This document shows, piece after piece, positions 9,431-53,185 of a stretch of DNA of 64,000 nt. This DNA is from Ruegeria pomeroyi (GTDB taxonomy: Bacteria; Pseudomonadota; Alphaproteobacteria; Rhodobacterales; Rhodobacteraceae). The translations under genes and the position numbers were made by a program. How positions within the stretch are numbered: position 1 is the stretch's first letter; the number at the start of each line of letters is the position of its first letter. The notes beneath the pieces are model-generated. The model was not told where the DNA came from, searched no databases, and saw only the letters and a program-made list of their open reading frames with translations. The stretch covers positions 372,001 to 436,000 of the forward strand of contig NZ_JAGQAG010000001.1 in NCBI RefSeq assembly GCF_021405525.1, in the 5' to 3' direction.

Positions 9431-9556
9431 CACGTTTTTGCCGATGGGTGCGCCGGGTCTTTACCTTTGCCCCGCGCCTCTGTTACAGGCGCCCGGTCCG
9501 GATCATCCGGGCGCCGGTCGCAGCCTACCCGGCTTATGAAAACAAGGGACCCAAAC

Positions 9557-10249
9557 GTGAAGACACTTGTCATCTGCTCCGGCGGATTGGATTCGGTATC
9601 GCTGGCCCACAAGGTGGCCGCCGAGCACGATCTGATCGGCCTTATCTCTTTCGACTACGGTCAGCGCCACCGCAAGGAGCTGGACTTTGCCGCCCGCGCG
9701 GCTGCGCGGCTGGGCGTGCCGCATGATCTGATCGACATGCGCCAGATCGGCGCGCATCTGTCGGGCAGTGCCCTGACCGATGATGTGGACGTGCCCGACG
9801 GGCATTATGCCGAGGACACCATGAAGATCACCGTGGTGCCCAACCGCAATGCCATCATGCTGGCCATCGCATTCGGCATCGCCGCGGCCAGACAGGCCGA
9901 CGCGGTGGCGACCGCCGTGCATGGCGGCGATCACTTCATCTATCCCGATTGCCGCCCCGGTTTTACCCAGGCCTTCGAGGCGATGCAGGCGCAGGCACTG
10001 GACGGTTATGCCAATGTCCGGCTCTACACCCCCTTTGTGCACGAACCGAAATCGGCCATCGTGAACGAGGGTGCGCGCCACAACACGCCCTTTGCCGATA
10101 CCTGGTCCTGCTACAAGGGGGGCGAGGTGCATTGCGGCCGCTGCGGCACCTGTGTCGAGCGGCGCGAGGCGTTCCATCTGGCGGGCGTCACCGATCCGAC
10201 CACCTATGCCGACCCCGAGTTCTGGCGCGCGGCGGTGGAGGGGCGCTGA
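9557..10249 (+). CDS. queC: 7-cyano-7-deazaguanine (preQ0) synthase QueC
   Basis: 230 aa. The PP-loop SGGLDS lies at residues 8-13, and the four zinc cysteines are Cys185, Cys193, Cys196 and Cys199 (SCYKGG...HCGRCGTC). The enzyme converts 7-carboxy-7-deazaguanine to preQ0 with ATP and ammonia. I chose the GTG at 9557, giving MKTLVICSGG, the usual family N-terminus; an ATG at 9536 would add seven residues and has no RBS. First gene of queCDEF; the stop overlaps the queD ATG. Compare the divergent QueC-like enzyme at 42212. Confidence 0.94.
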   Translation: MKTLVICSGGLDSVSLAHKVAAEHDLIGLISFDYGQRHRKELDFAARAAARLGVPHDLIDMRQIGAHLSGSALTDDVDVPDGHYAEDTMKITVVPNRNAIMLAIAFGIAAARQADAVATAVHGGDHFIYPDCRPGFTQAFEAMQAQALDGYANVRLYTPFVHEPKSAIVNEGARHNTPFADTWSCYKGGEVHCGRCGTCVERREAFHLAGVTDPTTYADPEFWRAAVEGR

Positions 10250-10605
10250 TGTACCGGATCACCAAGGAGTTCCATTTCTCGGCCTCGCACCAACTGTGCC
10301 ATCTGCCCGAGGATCACCCCTGTGCCCGGCTGCACGGGCATAACTATATCGTCGAGGTCGAACTGGCCGCTGCCGATCTGGATGCCAACGGGTTTGTCCG
10401 CGATTACCGCGAGTTGAAGCCGCTCAAGACCTGGATCGACGACGCGCTGGACCATCGACACCTGAACGAGGTGTTCGGCCATGACATGGTCACGTCCGAG
10501 CGGCTGGCGAAAGAGGTCTATGACTTCTGCAAGGCGCGCTGGGCAGAGACCAGCGCGGTGCGGGTCAGCGAAACGCCCAAGACCTGGGCCGAGTACCGGC
10601 CATGA
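10249..10605 (+). CDS. queD: 6-carboxy-5,6,7,8-tetrahydropterin synthase QueD
   Basis: 118 aa, the length of bacterial QueD. The zinc ligands are His14 (SASHQL), His29 and His31 (LHGHNY), with the catalytic Cys25 between them (HPCARLHGH). It makes 6-carboxytetrahydropterin from dihydroneopterin triphosphate, the second committed step toward preQ0. It shares TGATG with queC and an ATGA overlap with queE, so translation is tightly coupled. Confidence 0.94.
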
Positions 10606-11321
10606 ACACTCTGCGCATCGCCGAGATCTTCGGCCCCACCATCCAGGGAGAGGGCACGGTGATCGGCGCACCGACCGTATTCGTGCGGGCGGGCGGCTGT
10701 GACTATCGCTGTTCGTGGTGCGATAGCCTGCATGCGGTGGACAGCGCCTATCGTGATACATGGGCGCCTATGACCACGGAACAGGTCTGGGCCGAGGTTG
10801 AACGCCTCTCCGGTGGGGTGCCCCTGACGGTCTCGCTCTCGGGCGGCAACCCGGCAATTCAGGACTTCGGACCGCTGATCGAGATGGGCAAGGCGCAGGG
10901 CTATCGCTTTGCGCTGGAAACCCAAGGATCGGTCGCGCGCGGCTGGTTCCGCGAACTGTCGCCCCTGATCCTCAGCCCCAAGCCGCCCTCGTCCGGTGAA
11001 ACGGTCGATTGGGACCGGTTCGCCGACTGTATCGCGCGGGCGCGCGATGCGGTCACGGTGATCAAGATCGTGGTGTTCGACGAGGTGGATTACCTTTGGG
11101 CGCGTGAAGTGGCAGCGCGTTATCCGAACCTGCCGATCTATCTGCAACCGGGCAACCACACGCCGCCGCCGCCTGATGCCGAGGATGCCGCCATCGACAT
11201 GGACGGTATCATGACACGCTATGAATGGCTGATCGGTCGGGCCCTGGCCGACCGATGGTTCACCCCCACAATCCTGCCGCAGCTGCATGTGCTGGTCTGG
11301 GGCAACAAACGCGGCGTCTGA
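10602..11321 (+). CDS. queE: 7-carboxy-7-deazaguanine synthase QueE (radical SAM)
   Basis: 239 aa. The radical-SAM cluster motif is Cys33-x3-Cys37-x2-Cys40 ([12 protein letters not shown]), followed by SLSGGNP for SAM binding. It rearranges 6-carboxytetrahydropterin to 7-carboxy-7-deazaguanine (CDG), the substrate of QueC. It sits between queD (4-bp overlap) and queF. CDG is also the predicted input for any QueC-like enzyme, which links this operon to the island gene at 42212. Confidence 0.94.
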
Positions 11322-41246: not shown

Positions 41247-41322
41247 GGGCCGTTAGCTCAGTTGGTAGAGCAACTGACTTTTAATCAGTGGGTCGCAGGT
41301 TCGAATCCTGCACGGCTCACCA
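41247..41322 (+). tRNA. tRNA-Lys (anticodon TTT)
   Basis: 76 nt. The acceptor stem GGGCCGT pairs with ACGGCTC, discriminator A, CCA encoded. The anticodon loop reads CTTTTAA, so the anticodon is TTT; the T-arm is CAGGTTCGAATCCTG. Its 3' end faces the island, the common place for integration, but I found no second copy of the 3' end at the far boundary. Confidence 0.97.
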
Positions 41323-41369
41323 CTGAAATCAAGAACTTACCAGATATGGCGCGGCTTCTCCGATTGATC

Positions 41370-41387
41370 GGGTAAGCGCAGGGTAAG
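41370..41387. repeat. GGGTAAG direct repeat beside tRNA-Lys
   Basis: GGGTAAG occurs twice, 4 bp apart, about 50 bp beyond the tRNA end, and its complement CTTACC lies at 41336-41341. GAAATCAA at 41325-41332 is inverted by TTGATTTC at 41398-41405. These might be recombinase arm sites; there is no direct evidence. Confidence 0.3.
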
Positions 41388-41457
41388 CTTTTGATCTTTG
41401 ATTTCCTTTGCTTTCTCTCAATGGTTGCGTCAGCCTGATCGCGTTAGGGAGACGTTC

Positions 41458-42237
41458 ATGGGCCACATTCGGCTCGGCACGTTGCCACAGTCGAAAAAGT
41501 GGCGCGATGTCGTTGGGTTGATTGATTCTGGTGCGTCTGTTGACGTGATCGCCGAGGCGGCTGCAAAAGCCTCTGAGAGGGACCTTTCCCTTGCGAGCAA
41601 AGACGCGCGTTTTCAACTTGTGGCGGCGCTTCTGGTGCGATTGCCACTGCTGGCGCGTGCGCCGGGGTTTGAAGACGCTTTGGCCGACCTGGGTTGTGGC
41701 GATAGTCCCCTGCAATCGGTGGCAAGTTTGTTGGCCGGATTGGATGCAGCCATCGAACGGCAGAGCTTTGCTACCGGTCATGCATCTGACGTGGGTTTGT
41801 TGGCCAAGTCTGCCTTGCTTGAAACGCTGTCCGTGCATTTGCGGGACCGCCTTCCGACTCTGTTTGAACCGACGCCTCAAGACATCCGGCTCGCGCTCGG
41901 CGAATTTGCGTCCGGCGACCGGTTCGCCACTTTGGCGCGGGACTTCTTTGCAAGGCTGACCTACCGATCTCTGGACTATTACCTGAGCCGAGAGCTGGCC
42001 AACCACATCGGACAAGACCGGCGTTTTGCCTCTGATGCCCAGCGCGTCGCATTTCAACAGGCGCTTGCGCAACACAGCTTTGAAGCCTCGCGCATCGTGC
42101 AGGAATTCGCGGGCGGGTGGTTCGGCAAAACCGTCTGGCAGCGTCACGCGCTTGATCAGGACGCGATCAACCGGTTCACCAACTATGCGTTCAAAAAAAT
42201 GAGGTCCGAGCTTGGGCGGCGGCGCGATACCGTCTGA
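41458..42237 (+). CDS. Uncharacterised protein paired with a QueC-like enzyme (N-terminus Met-Gly-His)
   Basis: 259 aa, mainly helical. I recognise no named domain. Features are the N-terminus MGHIRLGTLPQSKKWRDVV, a central LARDFFARLTYRSLDYYLSR and a C-terminal EFAGGWFGKT plus basic tail. The ATG at 41458 has AGGGAGA 5 bp upstream; an in-frame TTG farther up is unlikely. It overlaps the QueC-like gene by 26 bp, so the products are made together. I recall similar proteins with the same first residues next to QueC-like genes in other bacteria. Residue 2 is Gly, which would be exposed after Met removal. No signal peptide or membrane segment. Confidence 0.75.
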   Translation: MGHIRLGTLPQSKKWRDVVGLIDSGASVDVIAEAAAKASERDLSLASKDARFQLVAALLVRLPLLARAPGFEDALADLGCGDSPLQSVASLLAGLDAAIERQSFATGHASDVGLLAKSALLETLSVHLRDRLPTLFEPTPQDIRLALGEFASGDRFATLARDFFARLTYRSLDYYLSRELANHIGQDRRFASDAQRVAFQQALAQHSFEASRIVQEFAGGWFGKTVWQRHALDQDAINRFTNYAFKKMRSELGRRRDTV

Positions 42238-44062
42238 GCATCGAGTCCGATGCCTGCCACCGCTGACCAAGAGCGGTGGCGACGCGCAATTGCGCCTTGA
42301 GATTGATGGGAAACCTGTTGGCGTCAAAGTCTGCATTAGCCACCTGAACGCCCAGCTTGTAGCAGAGATACCAGATCGTGCTTTGGACCTGCTGGAAGTC
42401 GCGGCCGTAGTTTATGGGGCCGACGCGGCAATCAGTCGCGGTGGCACGGCGGATCAACAGATGGGCAAGCAATGGCACCGACATTTCGAAGTTGAGGTTC
42501 CCGTTCGGGACTTCGTTTTCTGGGGAAGCGAAGAAGTCGTATCGGCGCTGGAAGAAATGTTGATGTTCCTGTCCGGAGATCGGTTTGTATTCCGGTTCGT
42601 TGCCAAAGAAGACGGAGAAGCCGAGAGATCATTGTTTTTCAAGTTTGACGAGGGTAGCGCATGGCAGGCGACGCGTGTCCTCATGTTCTCTGGTGGTCTC
42701 GATTCCTTTGCCGGTGCGCTTGAAGAAATTGCCGAGCAAGGCGAACGGGTTGCTCTGGTCAGCCACTTCTCAGCATCAAAAATCGCGCCGGTGCAGCGTA
42801 ACCTTCACAAGGCACTGGCAGCGAAGTTTGGCGAGAACAGCTGCCGCCATATTCCCGTGCAGGTCCAGATGGTCGGTAGAAGCCTCAAAGAAGGGACACA
42901 TCGGGCGCGGTCGTTCCTCTTTGCTGCGCTGGGCGCTGTCACGGCCAAAGCATTTGGGTTGCACCGGGTTTCATTCTACGAGAACGGAGTTGTCAGTCTG
43001 AACCTGTCGCCAGTCGGCAATGTCGTCGGCACGCGGGCGACCAGGACGACCCATCCGCAGACCCTTTCCCGGTTTTCGGATTTTCTCAGCCGCGTGTTTG
43101 CGTCCGAAACTCGGATAGACAACCCTTTTTTCTGGCGGACGAAGAAGGAAGTGGTGGAAACGGTCGCACGGCTGGATATGTCCGAGCAGATCGCGCAGAC
43201 GCGCAGTTGCGCCGACGTTCACAACCAGACCAAGCAACACATCCATTGCGGGCGATGTTCGCAATGTATTGACCGGCGCTTTGCCGTGCTGGCTGCCGGT
43301 CTGGAAAGGTTCGACCCGGAAGAGGCTTATCGGGTGGCTCTGATGGACGACGCCAGAATGGATGTTCGAGACCGTGAGATCGCACTGTCCTATCTGCGAA
43401 GCGCACAGGCCTATGAGCACATCACGCCTTCGGAGCTGGAACGCGCTTTGCCTGCCGTAATCAGCGCTGTTGCCCACTTGGCGCAGCCGATGCAAACGGC
43501 GCTTGAAATGATCACGCGTTTGTTGAAGCGGCACGGAACCGGGGTGTCCGACGTGATGCGTGCGACTCTAAAGGCAAAGTATGTGGGGGACTTCCCGGAT
43601 GGGAGTCTGCCAAGGCTTTACGGCGAGGCGCAAAGATCGGATGTCCTGCCGAGAGTCCCGGTTCTACCCCGTCACGTTTCTGAACCTCCAAAACTCATGA
43701 TCATGGAGGTGAATGAACAAAGGCGTCATGTCTTGATCGACGACCGGATTATCTTTGAACGCAATGCCACGGCAGAACTCTTGATTGTATTGGCCGACAA
43801 GTGGCTAGAAGGCGCTGGGCAGGGGATGATGCCCCTTGACTACCCGTTTCTTACCGCGACGCTTCTGGCAAAGGCATTGAGTTTGGAGGGCGATGAAGCT
43901 GTGCGACGACGGATCAATCGCGCGAAACTGGAGCTGAAAAATAAAATGGCTTCCAGTGGCAGGGATGCACAGGAAGCCGATGCGATAATCGAGAACGTGC
44001 CGTGGCAAGGCTATAGGCTGACCCCAGACCGAATAACAGTCCGGAAGGTCAGGGCGGATTGA
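42212..44062 (+). CDS. QueC-like PP-loop enzyme with N-terminal extension and C-terminal winged-helix-like domain
   Basis: 616 aa, far longer than QueC (about 230). Residues 1-150 are an unknown domain. The PP-loop SGGLDS lies at 160-165, and all four zinc cysteines are kept: Cys333, Cys346, Cys349 and Cys352 (HCGRCSQC). Residues about 500-613 look like an OmpR-type winged helix ending VPWQGYRLTPD. The start is the TTG at 42212, with GAGG 7 bp upstream and an in-frame stop at 42200. It probably uses ATP to activate a 7-carboxy-7-deazaguanine-like substrate. Related Cap9 of type IV CBASS conjugates deazaguanine to a protein. GC is visibly lower than the flanking core. Confidence 0.8.
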   Translation: MGGGAIPSEHRVRCLPPLTKSGGDAQLRLEIDGKPVGVKVCISHLNAQLVAEIPDRALDLLEVAAVVYGADAAISRGGTADQQMGKQWHRHFEVEVPVRDFVFWGSEEVVSALEEMLMFLSGDRFVFRFVAKEDGEAERSLFFKFDEGSAWQATRVLMFSGGLDSFAGALEEIAEQGERVALVSHFSASKIAPVQRNLHKALAAKFGENSCRHIPVQVQMVGRSLKEGTHRARSFLFAALGAVTAKAFGLHRVSFYENGVVSLNLSPVGNVVGTRATRTTHPQTLSRFSDFLSRVFASETRIDNPFFWRTKKEVVETVARLDMSEQIAQTRSCADVHNQTKQHIHCGRCSQCIDRRFAVLAAGLERFDPEEAYRVALMDDARMDVRDREIALSYLRSAQAYEHITPSELERALPAVISAVAHLAQPMQTALEMITRLLKRHGTGVSDVMRATLKAKYVGDFPDGSLPRLYGEAQRSDVLPRVPVLPRHVSEPPKLMIMEVNEQRRHVLIDDRIIFERNATAELLIVLADKWLEGAGQGMMPLDYPFLTATLLAKALSLEGDEAVRRRINRAKLELKNKMASSGRDAQEADAIIENVPWQGYRLTPDRITVRKVRAD

Positions 44063-44068
44063 CGGAGA

Positions 44069-45127
44069 TCACTCAAAGACATCGTCATCGCCAACATGTG
44101 TTTCACGCTTTCGGAACCTGTTCATCAATTCCATCTGCCGCCCCGGTGGAACCGTTCCATAGGAACTGAATGTCGTCAGAACGTCGTCGTGGCCCATGTT
44201 CTGGGACCATGCCTTGAAGTCTTCCGGCGAGCGGCAATGTTCGTTTGCCAGATCAAACATCGTATCCCGCACGCGATGCGGCGAGAAAGGCGGCAGACCT
44301 GCGTCGGTGAATGTCTGTTTGAAAATCTTCGCAGCGCTGGATGCGCTTTTCCACGGCTCCCGTGAAATTCCCACTGCCTCAAACTTGCGGGACATGCCAA
44401 CCGCGACTTTGGTCTTCGGGAACAGCGGATCAGCCGCGCTGAACAGGTGAACCTGCGTCAACTCCGTGGCCCAATCCCGAAGAATATCCTCCGCGAACTC
44501 GCCTAAAGGATAGAAGCTAGTGGAGAAAGATTTGCCAAATTTCGTGTCAACGTATCGACCATCGAATTGCACACACCCGTTCCTGAGGTCGAGGTTGCGC
44601 AAGGGTAATGAAATCGCGGCTCCCTCGCGCGAACCTGTCAGGAACAGGAATGCCAACAGTGCACGGTTTCGACGTTCGATCACTGTGCTTGACGGCATCG
44701 TCTTGATGACATGGCGTGCTTGGGCAGGCGAAGGATGTGGTTTCCACATTGTCCCCCGTCGGGCGTTTTCCGATTTGCGATCCGGCGAAAGATAGTCGGC
44801 ATCCGAGCGGCTGATTTTGGACTTGTAACCGGGCTGATCGGCCATCCAGTAGAAGAACGCCTTCAGTTCGCGCAGGGTGCCATTGGTTGTCGCAGCGGAC
44901 AACGGCGCGCCGGTCCGTTCATTCCGGAGGCCCGCCAAATGACGCTTGAACGACCGTGCGCGTTCGGCATGGAATGCGCGGAAGTCCTTGCTGCTAAGCC
45001 AGTCATCGTAGAGCGTGATTGCTGCAGCGGTCTTGTCGAGGGAAGCCTCGGAAATGCCTTGCGCTTCCTTGCGCCAGAGAAGGTATTTGCGCTTGATGCG
45101 CAGGTTATCCTTGCTGCGTTTTGCCAT
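44069..45127 (-). CDS. Tyrosine recombinase (integrase)
   Basis: 352 aa. The N-terminal SAM-like core-binding domain (SLDKTAAAITLYDDWLSS) is followed by a catalytic domain with Arg167 (TGSREGA), His284-x2-Arg287 (SPHRVRD), His313 (MGHDDV) and Tyr323 (SSYGTV). All active-site residues are present, so it may be functional. The ATG at 45127 overlaps the upstream HTH gene by 23 bp. It ends 6 bp from the convergent QueC-like gene. It likely mobilised part of the island. Confidence 0.87.
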   Translation of the reverse strand: MAKRSKDNLRIKRKYLLWRKEAQGISEASLDKTAAAITLYDDWLSSKDFRAFHAERARSFKRHLAGLRNERTGAPLSAATTNGTLRELKAFFYWMADQPGYKSKISRSDADYLSPDRKSENARRGTMWKPHPSPAQARHVIKTMPSSTVIERRNRALLAFLFLTGSREGAAISLPLRNLDLRNGCVQFDGRYVDTKFGKSFSTSFYPLGEFAEDILRDWATELTQVHLFSAADPLFPKTKVAVGMSRKFEAVGISREPWKSASSAAKIFKQTFTDAGLPPFSPHRVRDTMFDLANEHCRSPEDFKAWSQNMGHDDVLTTFSSYGTVPPGRQMELMNRFRKRETHVGDDDVFE

Positions 45128-45611
45128 GGGTTTGGCCCTTATGCGAAATAGTGACATTTGAACGGGGATCGGCACGGGACACTAATCTTGGGGACGCCTT
45201 CTGAATCGTCACCTCGATTTTTGCCCGTATTGCCTCAAGGTCGACCCGTTTGACGACCTTGTTCATCAGCGCGCCACACTCGGGGCACAGGCCGGTCAAA
45301 CGTCCCGTTTCTGGCGTTTGCTGTGTAAAATCGGCGATCTTGCCGTCAGGTTCGCGCGGGGCCTTGCACCCGAGGCAAAAGCAATGATGCAGGACTAATT
45401 TGGCGGTGATCGTGGTGTGACGAGCACCGAGAAAAGCCTTGAGGTCCTTTCCCTCGATCAGCCACGGTTTCTTGGTCGTTTCCGCGCGAAGACTTCCGGC
45501 CTTGATCCAGCGGATGACGGTCTGCCGGTGGCAGCCCAACGCACACGCGATCTCCCAAACGTCATAGACACGATGCGTTTTGATCCTGTTTGCGGGAAAT
45601 TTCTTGGCCAT
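45105..45611 (-). CDS. HTH protein with zinc-ribbon cysteines, excisionase-like
   Basis: 168 aa. The N-terminal HTH_17/MerR-like fold is VYDVWEIACALGCHRQTVIRWIKAG followed by PWLIEGKDLKAFLG. A CxxC pair (CFCLGC) and a second one (CPECGAL) could form a zinc ribbon. This plan fits an excisionase or a recombination directionality factor. It lies between a smaller HTH gene and the integrase, overlapping both. GGAG lies 8 bp before the ATG. Confidence 0.75.
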   Translation of the reverse strand: MAKKFPANRIKTHRVYDVWEIACALGCHRQTVIRWIKAGSLRAETTKKPWLIEGKDLKAFLGARHTTITAKLVLHHCFCLGCKAPREPDGKIADFTQQTPETGRLTGLCPECGALMNKVVKRVDLEAIRAKIEVTIQKASPRLVSRADPRSNVTISHKGQTHGKTQQG

Positions 45612-45814
45612 TACCGTCGCTCCGACGAAAGCGGGCCATGCGTGTTTTGGCAAAGATGATCAGCTTCAAAGGCCTCGACATCGGCCTCATCATATATGAC
45701 ACGCGCGCCGATCTTGAGAAATTTCGGCCCTTTCCCAAGCCATCTCCACTGCTCCAGTGTGCGAGGTGAAATGTGCCAGCGATCTGCGAGTTGGACCTGA
45801 GTAATCTTTGCCAT
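45611..45814 (-). CDS. Small AlpA/excisionase-like HTH protein
   Basis: 67 aa. The whole protein is a single winged HTH of the AlpA/Xis type: VQLADRWHISPRTLEQWRWL followed by KFLKIGARVIYDEADVEAFE. The ATG has AAAGGAAACGTC upstream, and the stop overlaps the next start by TAATG. First gene of the minus-strand HTH-HTH-integrase operon. It probably controls excision direction or the integrase promoter. Confidence 0.8.
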   Translation of the reverse strand: MAKITQVQLADRWHISPRTLEQWRWLGKGPKFLKIGARVIYDEADVEAFEADHLCQNTHGPLSSERR

Positions 45815-46105
45815 GACGTTTCCTTTCGTCTCGCTGCGAACCACCGATCTGCGGGACGCTTCTGTGACAAAAGATGCAGTTCTGCGCGCCGTATATCTGT
45901 GGACAACACGGGAAAAGTCGTGACTCCTTGGTCGTCAACCACTTGTTTTTAATTGCACTTGCCGAACAAGATGTGACGTGTTGCCGAAAGGTGTGACCGA
46001 TGGCTGCGACCCATCGCTCTGGATACATTCGCTAGTGCAACTCTTGCGTGAAACGCCTAGCGTGAGTTGGATAGAGCGGTAGTGATCTTAATTGGAACAG
46101 TGCAG

Positions 46106-49100
46106 ATGTCTTCAGACCTCTCCGATCTCATCCTTTCCCTGACCCCCGAAGATGGCTCGTCCATCGGCAACGGCGCGATGCTTGCGCGCCTGCGGGACCA
46201 TATCCCGACGCTGACTGACGAGGCCTATGAGGCCGCGCGGGATGCGCTGATCGACGATGGCACGTTGGGTCGCGGCAAGGGGCGTGGTGGTTCGGTGTAT
46301 CGGGCGGATGTGGCCGATCTGGAACTGACGGCTCCGGTGGCGAAGGAACCCAAGGCCACCACCGGCACCCGAAAAAAGGTCAGCCGCAAGTCGGATGAGC
46401 CGACCGAGGTGCTGTCGTATCGACATGGCGAAACGCGGGTGAACAACCCCGAGGTGGGGATGGTCCATGCGGACACCGACCCGGATGGTGAGAAATCCAC
46501 CTGGGCCTATGACCCGCATCTGGACCCGGTGCTGAACTTTGACAGCGCGCGGGGGGCGATTGAGACGTTGATCGACGAGGCGCTGGCCAGTGACGATCCG
46601 GTGCGGATGAAGGACGCGCTGACGGAACTCAAACGTTTGCAAGCCCCTTACCTGAACTGGACGGGCAAGGCAGAGAAGACGAGCTTTGAGGTCGATACCG
46701 TCTCGCTCCATGTCCATGAACGGGTGGACCCGGCGACGATCCTGGCGAATGCGGCCAAGCGGCTGAAGGGGCAGGATGCGGCGACGCAGTGGCGGCAGCC
46801 GGACCTGTTCGCCGCCCCGTTCGAGAACCTGCCGCTGCGCCAGGCGCTGGATTTCTACCACCACGAAAAGGGCTGGTCGAACCGGCTGGTGGCGGGGGAC
46901 AGCCTGCTGGTGATGAACTCGCTTCTGACCAAGGAGAGCATGGGCGGCAAGGTGCAGATGATCTATATCGACCCGCCCTATGGCATCAAATACGGGTCGA
47001 ACTTTCAGCCCTTCACCAACAAACGCGACGTGAAGGACCGGTCAGACGCCGACCTGACGCAAGAGCCAGAGATGATCAAGGCGTTCCGGGATACCTGGGA
47101 GTTGGGCATTCATTCCTACCTCACCTACCTGCGCGACCGGCTGATGCTGGCGCGGGAATTGCTGAACGAGAGCGGGTCGGTGTTTGTGCAGATTTCGGAT
47201 GAGAATGTACATCATGTAAGAGAATTGATGGACGAAGTATTCGGACCTGAAAATCAGCTTGGCTTCATAAGCTACCATACGACAAGCAGCCAAACGTCGG
47301 CTTACCTTGCTTCAGTTGGGGATTATCTTCTTTGGTATGGCCGCGATCGGTCAAAAGCAAAATTCAATCGCCTTTACATGGAAAAGGCGGATGAAAGCGG
47401 TCAGTATCGTTACGAAGACGAAAATGGCCGATTTTTCCGCTACTCAGATTTCACATCTCAGTCTGGCGGGTCTTCGACAATATTTGAGCACTCCCACAAA
47501 GGCATGACTTTCGAGCCCAAGAAGGGCGGTTACAAGACAAACACGATGGGTGCGTCTCGCCTGGAAAAATCGAATAGGTTGATGGGAGGCGGGAACACCC
47601 TTTCTTATATCCGTTATCTGGATGATTTTCCTGCAACGCCGATAGATGCCACTTGGACTGACACCCGGATAAGTGGTTTCTCCGACCCAAAGCGTTACGT
47701 AGTTCAAACGGGTCTCAAGGTAGTCGAACGCTGCCTCCTGATGACAACCGATCCAGGCGATCTGGTGCTCGATCCGACTTGCGGCTCGGGCACCACCGCT
47801 TTCGTCGCCGAGAAATGGGGGCGACGCTGGATCACCTGCGACACCTCCCGCGTGGCGATTACACTTGCCAAGCAGCGGCTGATGACCGCCAGTTTCGATT
47901 ATTACGCCCTGCGCTATCCCCATGAAGGGCTGAAGGGCGGGTTCGATTATGAAACCGTCCCGCATATCACGCTGAAATCCATCGCCAACAACCCCGACAT
48001 CGACACGATCTATGACGAGGATCACCCAAAGATCACGGCGGCGCTGGACGATCTGAACGCCGCGCTCACATCCGCGCCCCCGCTGCCGATCAAGCCCACC
48101 CAAGGCTATCGCAAAGGCAAGCAGGTTTCCTTCCGCGATGGCGACGTGCTGGAAGAATGGGAGGTGCCCTTTGACCTGCCCGCCGATTGGCCCGAGGCGG
48201 CCAAGGCCCCGTTCGAGGTCTTCCACAAAGCCCGTCAGGCCATGCAGCGCCGCATGGATCAGTCCATCGCCGATCACGCCGATCAGGAAACGCTCTACGA
48301 CAAGCCCCGCCCCGACAAAAACAAGCTGCGCATCACTGGCCCGTTCAGTGTCGAGGCTGTGCCCGCGCCAACCGTGCTCTCACTCGACGAAAGCCTGCCT
48401 GCGGAAGAGGCCGACAGCACAGTCGCCCGCTCTGGCGAAACCTCGCGCCAATCGCTCTGGCGCGATGAGCTGTTGAAAACCGGCGTGCGCGGCAAGGGCG
48501 GCAACATGATGCGCTTTGCCGAGTTCGAGGTGATCCCCGGCACCAAGTTCCTTCATGCCAGTGGATCGGTCGCCGACACAGGCGAGCGCGTGGTGGTCAG
48601 TTTCGGCCCCGAACACGCCGCACTTGAGCAGCGCCAGGTCGAAGAGGCAATGAACGAAGCCTACACGCTGATGCCCAAGCCCAAGTTCCTGCTGTTCTGT
48701 GCCTTCACCTTCGACCCGGAGGCCGCCAAGGACATCGACGAGATGAACGTGCCCGGTATGACCTTCCTCAAGGTGCAGATGAACACGGACCTGCTGACCG
48801 AGGACCTGAAAAAGGCGCGATCCTCAAACCAGTCCTTCTGGCTGATGGGCCAGCCCGAGATCGAGGTGCGCAAGCGCAAGGACGGGATGTGGGAGGTCGA
48901 GGTGCATGGCTTTGACTACTTCAACCCCAAGACCGGCGAGATCGAGGGCGGCGGCACCAAGCAGATCGCCATGTGGTCGCTGGATACGGATTACGATCAA
49001 CGCTCGCTCATGCCACACCAGGTGTTCTTTCCCATGGCCGACGCCAAGGGGGGGTGGAACCGGTTGAAAAAGACGATCCGGGCGGAGTTGGACGAGGACC

Positions 49101-49225
49101 TGCTGGAGCAGTTCCACGGTACGGTGTCGCTGCCCTTCGAGGCCGGGGACAACAAGCGGATCGCGGTGAAGATCGTGGATGATCGGGGGATCGAGTCCCT
49201 CAAGATAGTCGCGCTGGAGGGATAA
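46106..49225 (+). CDS. mod: Type III restriction-modification DNA methyltransferase (Mod)
   Basis: 1039 aa. An N-terminal winged helix (IGNGAMLARLRDHIPTLTDE) is followed by motif IV DPPYG at residues 289-293 and motif I DPTCGSG at 556-562. This order places it in the beta group of amino-methyltransferases, as in type III Mod. The region between them (about 370-540) is where target recognition sits and is AT-richer than its surroundings. The long C-terminal part is unusual for Mod. It methylates one strand of a short asymmetric site. The res gene starts 3 bp downstream. Confidence 0.88.
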   Translation: MSSDLSDLILSLTPEDGSSIGNGAMLARLRDHIPTLTDEAYEAARDALIDDGTLGRGKGRGGSVYRADVADLELTAPVAKEPKATTGTRKKVSRKSDEPTEVLSYRHGETRVNNPEVGMVHADTDPDGEKSTWAYDPHLDPVLNFDSARGAIETLIDEALASDDPVRMKDALTELKRLQAPYLNWTGKAEKTSFEVDTVSLHVHERVDPATILANAAKRLKGQDAATQWRQPDLFAAPFENLPLRQALDFYHHEKGWSNRLVAGDSLLVMNSLLTKESMGGKVQMIYIDPPYGIKYGSNFQPFTNKRDVKDRSDADLTQEPEMIKAFRDTWELGIHSYLTYLRDRLMLARELLNESGSVFVQISDENVHHVRELMDEVFGPENQLGFISYHTTSSQTSAYLASVGDYLLWYGRDRSKAKFNRLYMEKADESGQYRYEDENGRFFRYSDFTSQSGGSSTIFEHSHKGMTFEPKKGGYKTNTMGASRLEKSNRLMGGGNTLSYIRYLDDFPATPIDATWTDTRISGFSDPKRYVVQTGLKVVERCLLMTTDPGDLVLDPTCGSGTTAFVAEKWGRRWITCDTSRVAITLAKQRLMTASFDYYALRYPHEGLKGGFDYETVPHITLKSIANNPDIDTIYDEDHPKITAALDDLNAALTSAPPLPIKPTQGYRKGKQVSFRDGDVLEEWEVPFDLPADWPEAAKAPFEVFHKARQAMQRRMDQSIADHADQETLYDKPRPDKNKLRITGPFSVEAVPAPTVLSLDESLPAEEADSTVARSGETSRQSLWRDELLKTGVRGKGGNMMRFAEFEVIPGTKFLHASGSVADTGERVVVSFGPEHAALEQRQVEEAMNEAYTLMPKPKFLLFCAFTFDPEAAKDIDEMNVPGMTFLKVQMNTDLLTEDLKKARSSNQSFWLMGQPEIEVRKRKDGMWEVEVHGFDYFNPKTGEIEGGGTKQIAMWSLDTDYDQRSLMPHQVFFPMADAKGGWNRLKKTIRAELDEDLLEQFHGTVSLPFEAGDNKRIAVKIVDDRGIESLKIVALEG

Positions 49226-49228
49226 GCC

Positions 49229-52009
49229 ATGTCCCTGATCATCAACCGCCCGTGGGAGCGGCCTGAGCAACACTGGGTCGAGGGCAAAGGCGGCAAGCTG
49301 GAGATCAAGCCGGAGCGGCGGCCAGCGAGTTACGAGGTCTTTGATGCGCGCAACAACACCAAGCGGACAGAAGTGCTGGCCATGGTCAACACGATCCGCG
49401 ACCGCGTGGATCAGTGGCGTGAGGATGGCTATCCCGGCATCACCATCGTGACGCGCAAGCTGTTGGAGCATTGGCACGACGAGGACGCGCGCCAGCATCC
49501 GTTCTATTTCTGCCAGTTGGAAGCGATTGAGACGCTGATCTGGTGGGTCGAAGGCGCGGAAGCCTACAAGCAGGGCATTCATATCCCCGGCGATGGCGGT
49601 GCGTGGGAACGGCTGTGCAACAAGATGGCCACCGGCGCGGGCAAGACCACGGTGATGGCGATGATCATCACTTGGCAGGTGCTGAACGCGCTGACCTATC
49701 CGAAACGGAACAAGGATTTCAGCCGCGCGGTGTTCATCGTCGCACCGGGGCTGACCGTGAAGGGCCGGTTGCAGGTGCTGATGCCTTCTGAGGGCAGCTA
49801 TTACGACGAATTCAACCTTTGCCCGTCCGAGTCTATGCGCCAGAAGCTAAACCAGGCGGAGGTGCTGATCGAAAACTGGCACACCCTGATGCCGCTGAAG
49901 GAACAGGACCGGTCCGTCGTCAAGAAGGGCAAGGAATCCGACGAGGCCTTCACGCGCCGCGTTCTGGGCAAACTGGCCGCACACAAGGATATTATCGTCA
50001 TCAACGACGAGGCGCATCACGCCTATCGTAAGCCGCCGGAAGTCAAGATATCGAAGAAGCAGGCCGAGGAACAGGGCATCGACCTCGACGAGGCTACGCG
50101 GTGGATCGAAGGTCTGGACCGCATCCACAGGACGCGGCGCATCCAACGTTGCTTCGACCTCTCCGCTACGCCCTTCGCGCCCACCGGCAAGGCCAGCACT
50201 GACACTGCGTTGTTTGACTGGATCATTTCGGACTTCGGGTTGAATGACGCGATTGAGGCCGGGCTGGTGAAAACGCCCCGTGTCGTGGTGCGAGATGATG
50301 CGCTGCCAGATTCAAAGACGTTGCAGTCGAAGCTCTACCATATCTACCGCGACAAGTCGGTCTCTGAGGACCTGAACCGAGCCAAGGCCGAACCGCATGA
50401 GGCGTTGCCAAAACTCGTGCAGGATGCCTACACGCTTCTTGGGGCAGATTGGCGTGAGACGGCAAAGGATTGGGCGGAAGCCGGGCATCATTCCCCGCCG
50501 GTCATGCTAACGGTCTGCAATCGGACAGAAACTGCCGCCCGGATTGAGCACTACTTTAACCAGGGCGATGCCCATTGGCCCGAATTGCAGGCCCCGAATA
50601 GGACCTTACGCGTGGACTCGAAGGTTCTGGACAAGGCGGAAATCGGTGAGGCGGCGACCTCCGACAAAGCCTACGATCAGCGGCTTCAGGACATCGTGGA
50701 AGCATCTGACATACCGGAAACCCGGAAACGGCAGTTGAGCGGCCTAAAGAAGGAAGAGCTGCTCCGCGAGATCATCGACAATGTCGGCAAGCGCGGTCAG
50801 GCCGGGCAAGACCTCCAGAACGTGATTTCCGTAGCGATGCTATCTGAAGGATGGGATGCGAAGAACGTCACACATATCATGGGCTTGCGCGCATTCACGT
50901 CGCAATTGTTGTGCGAACAGGTCGTTGGACGAGGCCTTCGGCGGGTTTCCTATGACACCGACGAGAGTGGTCTTTTTTTACCGGAGTACGTGAATGTCTT
51001 TGGCGTTCCCCTTTCGATCTCCGAAGCTGGGGAACCCGGTGAAGCGCCACCTCCGCCTAAGCCAACAACACAGATTGAAGTCATTCCTGAACGCGCCAAT
51101 TTGGAGATCAAGTGGCCGAACGTGGTTCGTGTCGAGTCGGTTGTCCGCCGCGAATTGTCCGTCGAATGGTCAGACGTTGAGACGCTTACGCTTGATCCTG
51201 CCTCCACGCCCATCAGTGCGGACCTAGCCCCTGCTCTGGGCGGTGCAACCGACATGGGCAAAGTTTCCTCGATTGACTTGGAAAAGCTTCCGGACGGCTT
51301 CAGGCTTCAACGCCTCGTGTTTCAAGCAGCCCGAAAGGGGTTCGCAGGCCTGAAGCATAGCTTCAAAGGGTCGGAAGACCTGCTTGCAGCTCAGCTTGTC
51401 CGAATCGTTGAGGAATTCATCGAATCCGGAGCGCTGCAAGTTCCGTCGCTCTTCCACTCCGATCCTTTAAGGCGTCGCATACTGATTGCTCTCAACATCG
51501 ATCTGGTTGTTCAGCACCTCATGCAAAGCGTTTTTGAGCAGAACAGGACAAAGTTGACGCCGATCTTCGACGAAGAAAACCCAATCGGCTCCACGGGACA
51601 GATGCGCACTTGGTACACGACCAAGCCCAATTTTCCTGCCGTTAAGTCACATATCAGCCATTTGGTGGGGGACTCTTCTTGGGAGGGACATGCCGCCAAT
51701 ACTTTTGAAGAATCAGGTGACGTACTGGCCTACGCGAAGAACGACCACCTCGGGTTTCAAATTCAGTATTTGTGGTCCGGTTCTCGGCGGCGATACATTC
51801 CTGATTTTCTAGTGAAACTCACGTGTGGCAAGATGTTGGCGCTGGAAATCAAAGGTACTGACAGCCCACAGAACAAGGCAAAAAGAGACGCTTTGGCGGA
51901 GTGGGTGGAGGCGGTCAATTCCTTGGGAGGATTTGGTGTCTGGTCGTGGGATGTGGCGTTTCAACCAAGTTCATTGAACGACATTATTCAGCGTCATTCC
52001 GAAGTCTGA
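49229..52009 (+). CDS. res: Type III restriction endonuclease, helicase-nuclease subunit (Res)
   Basis: 926 aa. The SF2 helicase core has Walker A ATGAGKT (134-140) and DEAH (260-263, VINDEAHHAY); motif VI is in CEQVVGRGLRRVSYD. The C-terminal PD-(D/E)xK nuclease is readable as YIPDFLVKL followed by LALEIKGTDS. It acts with Mod on unmethylated sites by ATP-driven sliding. Codon use becomes more AT-rich from about 50.6 kb, like the middle of mod. No frameshift was seen. Confidence 0.88.
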   Translation: MSLIINRPWERPEQHWVEGKGGKLEIKPERRPASYEVFDARNNTKRTEVLAMVNTIRDRVDQWREDGYPGITIVTRKLLEHWHDEDARQHPFYFCQLEAIETLIWWVEGAEAYKQGIHIPGDGGAWERLCNKMATGAGKTTVMAMIITWQVLNALTYPKRNKDFSRAVFIVAPGLTVKGRLQVLMPSEGSYYDEFNLCPSESMRQKLNQAEVLIENWHTLMPLKEQDRSVVKKGKESDEAFTRRVLGKLAAHKDIIVINDEAHHAYRKPPEVKISKKQAEEQGIDLDEATRWIEGLDRIHRTRRIQRCFDLSATPFAPTGKASTDTALFDWIISDFGLNDAIEAGLVKTPRVVVRDDALPDSKTLQSKLYHIYRDKSVSEDLNRAKAEPHEALPKLVQDAYTLLGADWRETAKDWAEAGHHSPPVMLTVCNRTETAARIEHYFNQGDAHWPELQAPNRTLRVDSKVLDKAEIGEAATSDKAYDQRLQDIVEASDIPETRKRQLSGLKKEELLREIIDNVGKRGQAGQDLQNVISVAMLSEGWDAKNVTHIMGLRAFTSQLLCEQVVGRGLRRVSYDTDESGLFLPEYVNVFGVPLSISEAGEPGEAPPPPKPTTQIEVIPERANLEIKWPNVVRVESVVRRELSVEWSDVETLTLDPASTPISADLAPALGGATDMGKVSSIDLEKLPDGFRLQRLVFQAARKGFAGLKHSFKGSEDLLAAQLVRIVEEFIESGALQVPSLFHSDPLRRRILIALNIDLVVQHLMQSVFEQNRTKLTPIFDEENPIGSTGQMRTWYTTKPNFPAVKSHISHLVGDSSWEGHAANTFEESGDVLAYAKNDHLGFQIQYLWSGSRRRYIPDFLVKLTCGKMLALEIKGTDSPQNKAKRDALAEWVEAVNSLGGFGVWSWDVAFQPSSLNDIIQRHSEV

Positions 52010-52038: not shown

Positions 52039-52740
52039 CTAAGACATTTTCTTTGCCATGACTTCAGCGGCATCGCGCAATGGATCATCAGCCAGATGCG
52101 CGTAGCGCTGCGTTGTAAGCGGGTTCGTGTGCCCTAAGAGCCGACCGACCACTGGCAAGCTTAGGCCGCTTGAAACCAAGTGTGATGCGTGGGTATGCCG
52201 ATTGTCGTGGATGCGATAATCTGAAAGCTCGGCGTTGGTCGTGATGCTGTGCCAAAAGCGCTTTAGTTCTTTAAGTGGCTGATTGGGTGTCTTGCCGGGG
52301 AAAACAAACGGTTGCTCAATGTTTGCGGTCTCTTTTATTGACTGGAGCAGCGTGATCGCCGCGCCAGAAAGCGGCAGGTGTTCGGTGCGTTTCTGCTTCG
52401 TGTGATGTGAAGGTTTGATCCAGACGCCCCGGAAAAGATCGAAATCGTCCCATCTGGCGGTCAGGACTTCGCCAATTCGCGCGCCGGTCAGAAGTTGCAA
52501 GCGGATGGCATTGGCAGCGTTCTGATTCGGGTGTTCATTTAGAGCTCCGATAAGTCGGGTCAGTTCAACATCAGAGAGCCAGCGATAGCGTTTTTGTTCG
52601 GGGAAACGCTCGACGCCCTTGGCGGGGTTGTCGTGCCTCCATCCCCAACGGACAGACAAGGCAAACATCTTAGAAAGTAGGGCCAGCGTTCGGTTTGCCG
52701 CCGATGCGCCCGACCGCCAGCACCAGCGCCGGATCGACAC
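52039..52740 (-). pseudogene. Truncated tyrosine integrase (catalytic domain only)
   Basis: The 233-aa frame keeps Arg88 (TGARIGE), His178-x2-Arg181 (IHDNRHTH), His204 (LLGHTNP) and Tyr213 (QRYAHL), but the DNA-binding half is missing: integrase-like sequence begins at ANRTLALLSKMF. Normal members are about 400 aa. The first 15 codons come from the fused mobC remnant. It is likely inactive on its own and is a scar of a second integration event at tRNA-Arg. Confidence 0.8.
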
Positions 52741-52959
52741 GCGGCACTGGCTTCCGGCGGCGCGCCTCGGTCAGGCCAAGCGCCTCGCGCAGGAGCGTTG
52801 CGGCGGGCAGGCCAGCGGCCTCGGCCTTGGCGCGCAGTTCGGCCTTCTCGGTGGCCGTGCAACGGAAGACGAAAGTCTCCGTCAGCGGCTCCTTTGCGCG
52901 GGTCTTGCCCGCGCCGGTGGGGTTCGAAGGGGCGGCTTCCGGCGCGGTCGTCTTGTCAT
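52670..52959 (-). pseudogene. Broken mobC-like relaxosome gene fused to the integrase remnant
   Basis: Reading back from 52959, one frame gives DKTTAPEAAPSNPTGAGKTR, then FVFRCTATEKAELRAKAEAA and PALVLAVGRIGG, which resembles MobC/ribbon-helix-helix mobilisation proteins. The expected GGNLNQIAR that should follow is lost: the frame runs into the integrase fragment and stops. The ATG at 52957-52959 (RBS GAGGAGAAG) is one base out of frame with the rest, so a one-base deletion is also likely. Truncated and frameshifted. Confidence 0.7.
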
Positions 52960-53108
52960 GGTCTTCTCCTCGCTCGCAGCATCATGCTGCTGTTGCGCGG
53001 AAAATCCACTTATCCCGGCTGTTCAGTTTTCCGGAACCGTCTCTCGCGGGGCTTTCCGCATGCTTCTGCACAACGTTTTGTAAATATGCCATATTTTTCA
53101 GGTAGTTT

Positions 53109-53185
53109 TGGTGACCCCGGCAGGATTCGAACCTGCAACCTGCCCCTTAGGAGGGGGCTGCTCTATCCAATTGAGCCACGGGGCC
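53109..53185 (-). tRNA. tRNA-Arg (anticodon CCT)
   Basis: 77 nt. The acceptor GGCCCCG pairs with CGGGGTC with one wobble, then discriminator A and CCA. The anticodon loop CTCCTAA gives anticodon CCT; the T-arm is CAGGTTCGAATCCTG. Its 3' end (53109) faces the island with the truncated integrase about 370 bp away, which makes it a plausible integration site. Confidence 0.96.

Follow-up and report, generated by a model that had tools for sequence, protein, structure and literature searches.

The closest described relatives of the locus treated here are defence systems in which a QueC-like enzyme works beside a glycine-bearing partner. In the qatABCD system (PDB 9y01/9y02, 9vlk and 9zee), QatB and QatC without QatA and QatD are reported to protect Escherichia coli against lambda vir, and defence needs both Gly2 of QatB and the catalytic residues of QatC; it is abolished by the QatB substitution G2D and by deletion of QatB residues 16-22, which hold the conserved Pro16 and Trp18 (PMC13279940, cited throughout for the portions available to us). 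In type IV cyclic oligonucleotide-based antiphage signalling systems (CBASS), Cap9 places an N-terminal deazaguanine on a glycine, and what QatC attaches to QatB, and how the phage is stopped, are stated as open (PMC13279940). Members of the QatC cluster neighbour qatA in 34.3% and qatD in 33.6% of cases, with qatB at a similar frequency (data not shown there; PMC13329287, likewise cited for the portions available). Because only about a third neighbour qatA or qatD, we consider QatC units whose partner goes unrecognised as qatB to be possible. In those portions, neither article mentions a naturally occurring unit of two genes that lacks qatA and qatD, or fused tails; subscription papers, preprints and supplements lie outside this comparison. 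Here we analyse a gene pair of this kind, A and C, in a 64,000-nucleotide stretch of the Ruegeria pomeroyi genome (RefSeq GCF_021405525.1, contig NZ_JAGQAG010000001.1, positions 372,001 to 436,000; hereafter the window).

These genes probably specify a stand-alone QatB-QatC-like complex that is carried on mobile elements and serves as an anti-phage or anti-element module. An earlier sequence-only reading of the window, made without database searches, had picked out the pair as a candidate deazaguanine-dependent unit for defence or conjugation, and had proposed counting how often homologues of the two genes occur together. For this test, set beforehand, relatives were retrieved with A alone: a genome search with one N-terminal and one C-terminal pattern returned 104, of which 80 were examined, and a viral-contig search returned 36, making, with one Leptospira plasmid locus, 117 loci and 113 distinct A proteins (with copies in L041/L094, L057/L106 and L073/L074/L122). 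The pair passes the test: C comes directly after A, on the same strand, in all but four of the 117 loci (113), the exceptions being L031, L034, L082 (A truncated) and L118; in five of the 113 (L018, L032, L048, L119, L124) C is split over two frames. Some loci end at contig edges, and flanks reach at most 8 kb, often less. The tree rows name eleven phyla, with the Leptospira plasmid as a twelfth, and within the class of the window's host A occurs in six of 385 sampled genomes, this one included (one match is broken, one marginal at 8.8e-4). Among plasmids A has one match, in Leptospira noguchii; among phage records it has none, and two Listeria phage entries match the QatC part of C. A further QatC-like variant was seen on the Labrenzia plasmid pTHAF191a_c (L132, 2448-6151), where the genes for a 187-aa hypothetical protein, a QueC-like protein and an XRE regulator, and one more gene, apparently share an operon; the annotation there shows neither qatA nor qatD.

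Gene C encodes a QatC homologue. Its product matches PADLOC QatC (4.7e-60), NCBIfam QatC (NF041925; E 3.6e-65, 220.4 bits, below the 280-bit cut-off), the solved QatC chains in the PDB (1e-36 by sequence search) and Pfam QueC (9.4e-9), and comparison of the C family with QatC by hhalign gave E 1e-38 (alignment A3, columns 57-456). An AlphaFold2 model (55 sequences, mean pLDDT 89.3), compared by VIA-align, superposes over residues 8-472 on QatC chain 9y02_B with Z 34.0 (root-mean-square deviation (rmsd) 2.9, 396 residues aligned); QueC reaches Z 14.4 and Cap9 14.2. The model has the QatC architecture of N-terminal extension, QueC core and C-terminal helices. The sequence-only reading had called this protein QueC-like, and the core residues that it named are indeed present (SGGLDS at 160-165; zinc-site cysteines 333, 346, 349 and 352), but C is more than merely QueC-like.

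The active site points the same way. Among 97 C proteins the SGGxDS, QatC-type [TS]R[TS]xHP and zinc motifs are each found in 96, and the QueC-type motif Y[P/R/A/K/S/G]DC in none. The Tyr/Asp pair with which QueC and Cap9 bind the nucleobase is replaced in C by a Thr motif (T277/T279 in ATRTTHP); that of QatC is T278/T280 (PMC13279940). The loop N264-H281 equals in length the QatB-binding loop N265-H282 of QatC, and C keeps the QatC signature taken from PMC13329287, namely SGGxDS, D(x4)R..WxR, RxRxxxF, ExG, the TRTTHP-type Thr motif, P(x4)TK and C..CGxCxxCxxRR, with spacings that differ in the W and first-Cys parts (alignments A2 and A6, and a motif search). With canonical QueC (TIGR00364, PF06508), C thus has in common the PP-loop and the four-cysteine zinc site, but it is extended at both ends, bears another catalytic signature and has a partner protein.

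That partner, A, gave no usable match in sequence searches of Pfam, NCBIfam, PADLOC, PHROGs or the PDB (the sole library row was PADLOC DpdD, E 0.057), in agreement with the earlier description of a 259-aa protein without a recognisable domain; its structure model, however, has the fold of QatB. The model (92 sequences, mean pLDDT 89.1) is all helical, with a first helix from residue 13, and aligns by VIA-align with QatB chain 9y01_A at Z 12.4 (rmsd 3.9, 209/215 residues), the next unrelated chain reaching 5.8. On the strength of this fold match, of a profile comparison and of the QatC-like neighbouring gene, A is very probably, though not certainly, a QatB relative. Several observations weigh against the assignment. 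In VIA-align, helical bundles can reach Z about 13 by chance; hhalign of A with eight QatB sequences was weak (probability 79.9, E 1.4e-5, 93 columns); a hidden Markov model (HMM) built from those eight matched no A protein in the 117 loci, and neither NCBIfam nor PADLOC returned a QatB match for A. Foldseek against the PDB found nothing at E <= 0.001, with QatB absent from the 50 rows listed. Moreover, the tail before the first helix has about 12 residues, as against 30-90 in QatB, and A begins MGH, not MGTS as QatB does.

What A does carry is a shortened Gly-Pro-Trp version of the QatB N-terminal region. Gly2 is present in 105 of 106 full-length A proteins: 103 as matched, and two more (L097, L113) in which GTG- or TTG-Gly-His lies directly upstream of the match start. 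Of the full set, 104 show Gly-His (L117 reads MGN), and all 59 of the full-length proteins without the N-terminal search pattern, which were caught by the C-terminal one, also begin start-Gly-His. Across 55 aligned A proteins, invariance is confined to M1, G2, L135 and W221, and H3, P10 and W15 reach >=90%; an alignment of 92 rows, L118 among them, leaves M1 and W221 as the sole invariant residues, with G2 at >=90%. The sole exception to Gly2, L118, comes from a viral contig, has Asp2 and has no C match, as might be expected of a decaying pair, although one locus is an anecdote and no test. A-C thus resembles qatABCD in the fold, Thr-bearing active site and loop length of its enzyme, and in a helical partner encoded upstream in the operon whose conserved N-terminal glycine is followed by Pro and Trp. 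With type IV CBASS it shares a QueC-like enzyme beside a Met-Gly partner (the acceptor in CBASS), but C is without Cap9's deazaguanine-binding pair, and no CD-NTase (cGAS/DncV-like nucleotidyltransferase) matched in a Pfam scan of A, of C and of the genes after it up to 52740.

C differs from QatC in an extra C-terminal domain of about 100-260 residues. In the window, residues 496-613 are modelled as an OmpR-type winged helix, aligning by VIA-align with BaeR (4b09_B; Z 10.4, 93 aligned, rmsd 2.6) and with the DNA-binding domains of CadC (5ju7; Z 9.1, 96 aligned, rmsd 2.7) and ArlR (9dlu; Z 9.1, 88 aligned, rmsd 2.1). Unlike those proteins, C has this domain fused to a QatC-like enzyme, with no receiver domain. 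Pfam Trans_reg_C does not match the window protein, and at E <= 0.01 Pfam finds, among 59 C proteins, QueC in 58, DpnII-MboI in eight, Trans_reg_C in two and Trypsin_2 in one. Class models sorted 94 tails into 53 winged helices of the window type, 22 of a second, unassigned class, eight nucleases, four of a third class, also unassigned, two Trans_reg_C, one trypsin-like and four unclassified; these models were seeded by eye and are partly circular, the Pfam counts being the independent part. A quick 77-row tree sets the 68 C proteins that have an A partner apart from nine QatC rows, with a Shimodaira-Hasegawa-like approximate likelihood ratio (SH-aLRT) support of 97, four of the QatC rows being long branches. 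The tail is exchanged among winged helix, DpnII/MboI-type nuclease and trypsin-like protease; in the same tree the trypsin-tailed L090 nests inside a seven-row clade (support 100) that is otherwise nuclease-tailed, which is one such exchange. The ratio of nonsynonymous to synonymous rates (dN/dS) between the window and its nearest relative, L011 from Maritimibacter alkaliphilus, is 0.21 in the tail, which evolves faster than the rest; over whole genes, A is 93% and C 86% identical between the two, dN/dS is 0.045 and 0.10, and third positions take 86 of 110 and 221 of 325 differences. Both behave as real genes and are under purifying selection.

A mechanism can be sketched by analogy with Cap9 and QatBC. 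Removal of the initiator methionine would expose Gly2 of A, whose short N-terminal strand would enter the ATP-pyrophosphatase site of C, the two proteins forming a complex. C would then activate a small carboxylate at the expense of ATP and attach it to the amine of Gly2, so that A would carry at its N-terminus a counterpart of the deazaguanine cap known from type IV CBASS. The fused tail may replace functions that other subunits supply elsewhere, either giving the output or placing the complex: in the window the winged helix could hold the complex on DNA, or sense DNA, and in relatives the nuclease or protease tail could cut DNA or protein. Infection would be the trigger, and defence the outcome.

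The sequence-only reading had made the pair deazaguanine-dependent, and this part of it is not supported, given the replaced Tyr/Asp pair and the distribution of the pathway. Among 42 host genomes, reached through the loci and of unstated completeness, QueD (PF01242) was detected in 28, QueC above its cut-off in 23 and QueE (TIGR03365, E <= 1e-12) in 18; none of the three was detected in 13 (G389, G393-G398, G407, G413, G414, G419, G425, G427), which weighs against deazaguanine as the cap. The TIGR03365 probe is insensitive (positive in 6 of 14 controls, and missing 7 of 23 QueC-positive genomes), so the claim of absence leans on QueD and QueC. Nine of the 13 are RefSeq records whose titles do not mention a metagenome-assembled genome (MAG; L011, L015, L016, L020, L021, L027, L029, L059, L060), and the other four are records of MAGs or of uncultured organisms. 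A tRNA-guanine transglycosylase (TGT) is present in all 13, which hence are not simply empty of data; presumably they use a salvaged base for this enzyme. In the nine RefSeq hosts C keeps SGGLDS, ATRTTHP and the zinc site, with a short tail in L016. A-C is therefore unlikely to require host-made 7-carboxy-7-deazaguanine (CDG), although salvage or inactive copies may account for the negative hosts. A broader proposal, to which we give somewhat less than even credence, is that A-C represents a widespread and undescribed immune family of two genes: a QatC-type ligase, fused to an interchangeable effector or sensor (winged helix, restriction nuclease or protease), would cap the N-terminal glycine of a QatB-like protein with a carboxylate other than 7-deazaguanine, since the pair stays intact in hosts that have no pathway for it.

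The A-C pair is cargo or a module of mobile elements. In the window, blastn similarity to same-genus genomes ends at 41324 in three of four; the fourth (G385; L142, 333-1866) has a diverged A at the same tRNA-Lys, and its C frame stops early, close to where the contig ends. A scan of 104 loci for tRNA genes placed one on the same strand 124-149 bp before A in 20 of them (Lys 10, Arg 5, Thr 5). In all 20 the first half-site of a direct repeat lies 47-48 nt after the tRNA (the whole repeat, at <=1 mismatch, in 18), at a distance from A that varies between 76 and 101 nt; GGTAAGC-N4-GGTAAGC occurs once in the window's genome at <=1 mismatch. With its 11-bp period the repeat resembles an OmpR/PhoB-type box, and an operator for the winged helix of C was considered there and rejected. 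Because the spacing is fixed to the tRNA and variable to A, the repeat reads as candidate recombinase arm sites of an attachment region. No repeat of the tRNA end that could be attR was found in the window, other than the tRNA-Arg itself at three mismatches, or downstream of A in the 20 relatives within the flanking DNA examined.

Neighbouring genes, grouped by single-linkage clustering and annotated through one or a few members of each cluster, are of several mobile-element types. A homologue of the window integrase follows C in convergent orientation in 19 of 117 loci, and an excisionase-like gene occurs in 17; serine recombinases are found in 42 loci, D5 primases in 25, ParB-methyltransferases in 21 and DUF2924 proteins in 16. 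At least one of five types (these four or tyrosine recombinase) is present in 69 loci and none in 48, within the flanks examined. In 18 loci (for example L041, L043, L047, L049, L055, L059 and L060) a D5-type primase starts 301-439 bp past C, an arrangement that could indicate a satellite-like element.

Such fixed places, beside an integrase or before a primase, weigh against a defence role and leave room for element housekeeping: A-C might be a core module that regulates excision or replication, or controls sister elements, with the winged helix as a transcription factor. The 69 loci with mobile-element neighbours speak for this account. It sits less well with the presence of A-C on two unlike types of element (tyrosine-recombinase islands that target tRNA genes, and serine-recombinase elements), with tails that are nucleases or proteases, with a repeat that tracks the tRNA and so reads as no operator of A, and with the resemblance of both proteins to a pair known to defend; we regard it as unlikely.

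Far less probable is that the pair belongs to a regular Qat system with QatA and QatD encoded elsewhere, for all that C matches PADLOC QatC and A has a QatB fold. HMMs for QatA, QatB and QatD matched none of the 117 loci (two control loci matched, but were members of the models), and Pfam and PADLOC found no qatA or qatD among the window neighbours scanned. A QatA query hit five of 42 host genomes at E <= 1e-6, at full length only in G411, and the window genome was negative. The separate branch of C and its score below the NCBIfam cut-off also speak against this account, and the locus is, as the sequence-only reading had supposed, a smaller system than Qat, of two genes only. That C is a QueC isoenzyme making 7-deazaguanine for tRNA or DNA can be set aside as most improbable, the Pfam QueC match notwithstanding, since the window genome already has queC (complete, in the window, as had been noted), queD and queE, the nucleobase-binding pair is replaced, A is a constant partner, the one TGT match in the genome is remote from the window, at C1:1611564, and some hosts have no QueD and QueE; the earlier judgement against tRNA queuosine synthesis therefore stands. 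A stand-alone QatB-QatC-like module remains the reading that we favour.

Features of the locus are collected in Table 1. The placement of the pair in a tRNA-Lys mobile island beside type III restriction-modification genes, and the 26-bp overlap of A and C on the plus strand, agree with the earlier description, to which the winged-helix tail, the QatB fold of A, and the convergent integrase and excisionase-like gene after C are additions. A starts 135 bp past the tRNA, at an ATG preceded by GGGAG; an upstream TTG would give 279 aa. The first available start of C is a TTG.

Table 1. Features of the A-C locus and of the queuosine genes in the window (positions are those of the window).
Feature	Position	Strand	Assignment or evidence	Remarks
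tRNA-Lys (ttt)	41247..41322	+	ARAGORN; Rfam RF00005	integration target of element
Left attachment region	41323..41390	+	TTCAA..ACTTA-like stretch and direct repeat GGTAAGC-N4-GGTAAGC (41371-41388)	candidate recombinase arm sites
Gene A	41458..42237	+	QatB-like, all-helical, 259 aa	N-terminus MGHIRLGTLPQSKKW; residues 1-6 disordered in model
Gene C	42212..44062	+	QatC-like 616-aa enzyme with C-terminal fusion	
C residues 1-472, QatC part	42212..43627	+	PP-loop 160-165, TRTTHP 277-282, zinc site 333-356	
C residues 496-613, predicted OmpR-type winged-helix domain	43697..44050	+	structure model	after disordered linker 478-489
Tyrosine recombinase	44069..45175	-	Pfam Phage_integrase 1.5e-8	convergent with C
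Excisionase-like helix-turn-helix protein	45105..45653	-	Pfam HTH_17 7.9e-8; TIGR01764 6.1e-6, slightly below cut-off	
Type III DNA methyltransferase	46067..49225	+	PADLOC MTase_III 4.8e-170	neighbouring cargo, outside A-C pair
Type III restriction subunit	49229..52009	+	Pfam ResIII 2.6e-8	neighbouring cargo
queC	9467-10249		TIGR00364 3.6e-49	complete gene within this open reading frame (ORF)
queD	after queC in window		TIGR03367 1.6e-25	
queE	10602-11321		TIGR03365 2.1e-111	

At the far side of the island, a second, short tyrosine-recombinase ORF (52039-52740, 233 aa) lies beside a tRNA-Arg (53109-53185). The 3' ends of tRNA-Lys and tRNA-Arg face each other across the 11.8-kb island, which may reflect two integrations. 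About 112 bp beside the tRNA-Arg (52937-53049) are matched at another place in this genome (G000:C1:1511524-1511636) with 99% identity, and two genomes of the genus have the stretch at 94-98%, the DNA to the right of 53049 being conserved backbone; this stretch is perhaps the attachment side of another element.

A-C looks like an undescribed variant of known defence chemistry, and in its family the QatB-QatC pair is available in a minimal, natural form. For the glycine-bearing partner, which NCBIfam and PADLOC models leave unrecognised in the one member scanned, up to 140 places are added (104 genome and 36 viral-contig, including a few duplicates). The nuclease, protease and winged-helix tails suggest outputs open to direct assay, and because the pair occurs in genomes where QueC, QueD and QueE are not detected, the question of its substrate can be tested by genetics and mass spectrometry.

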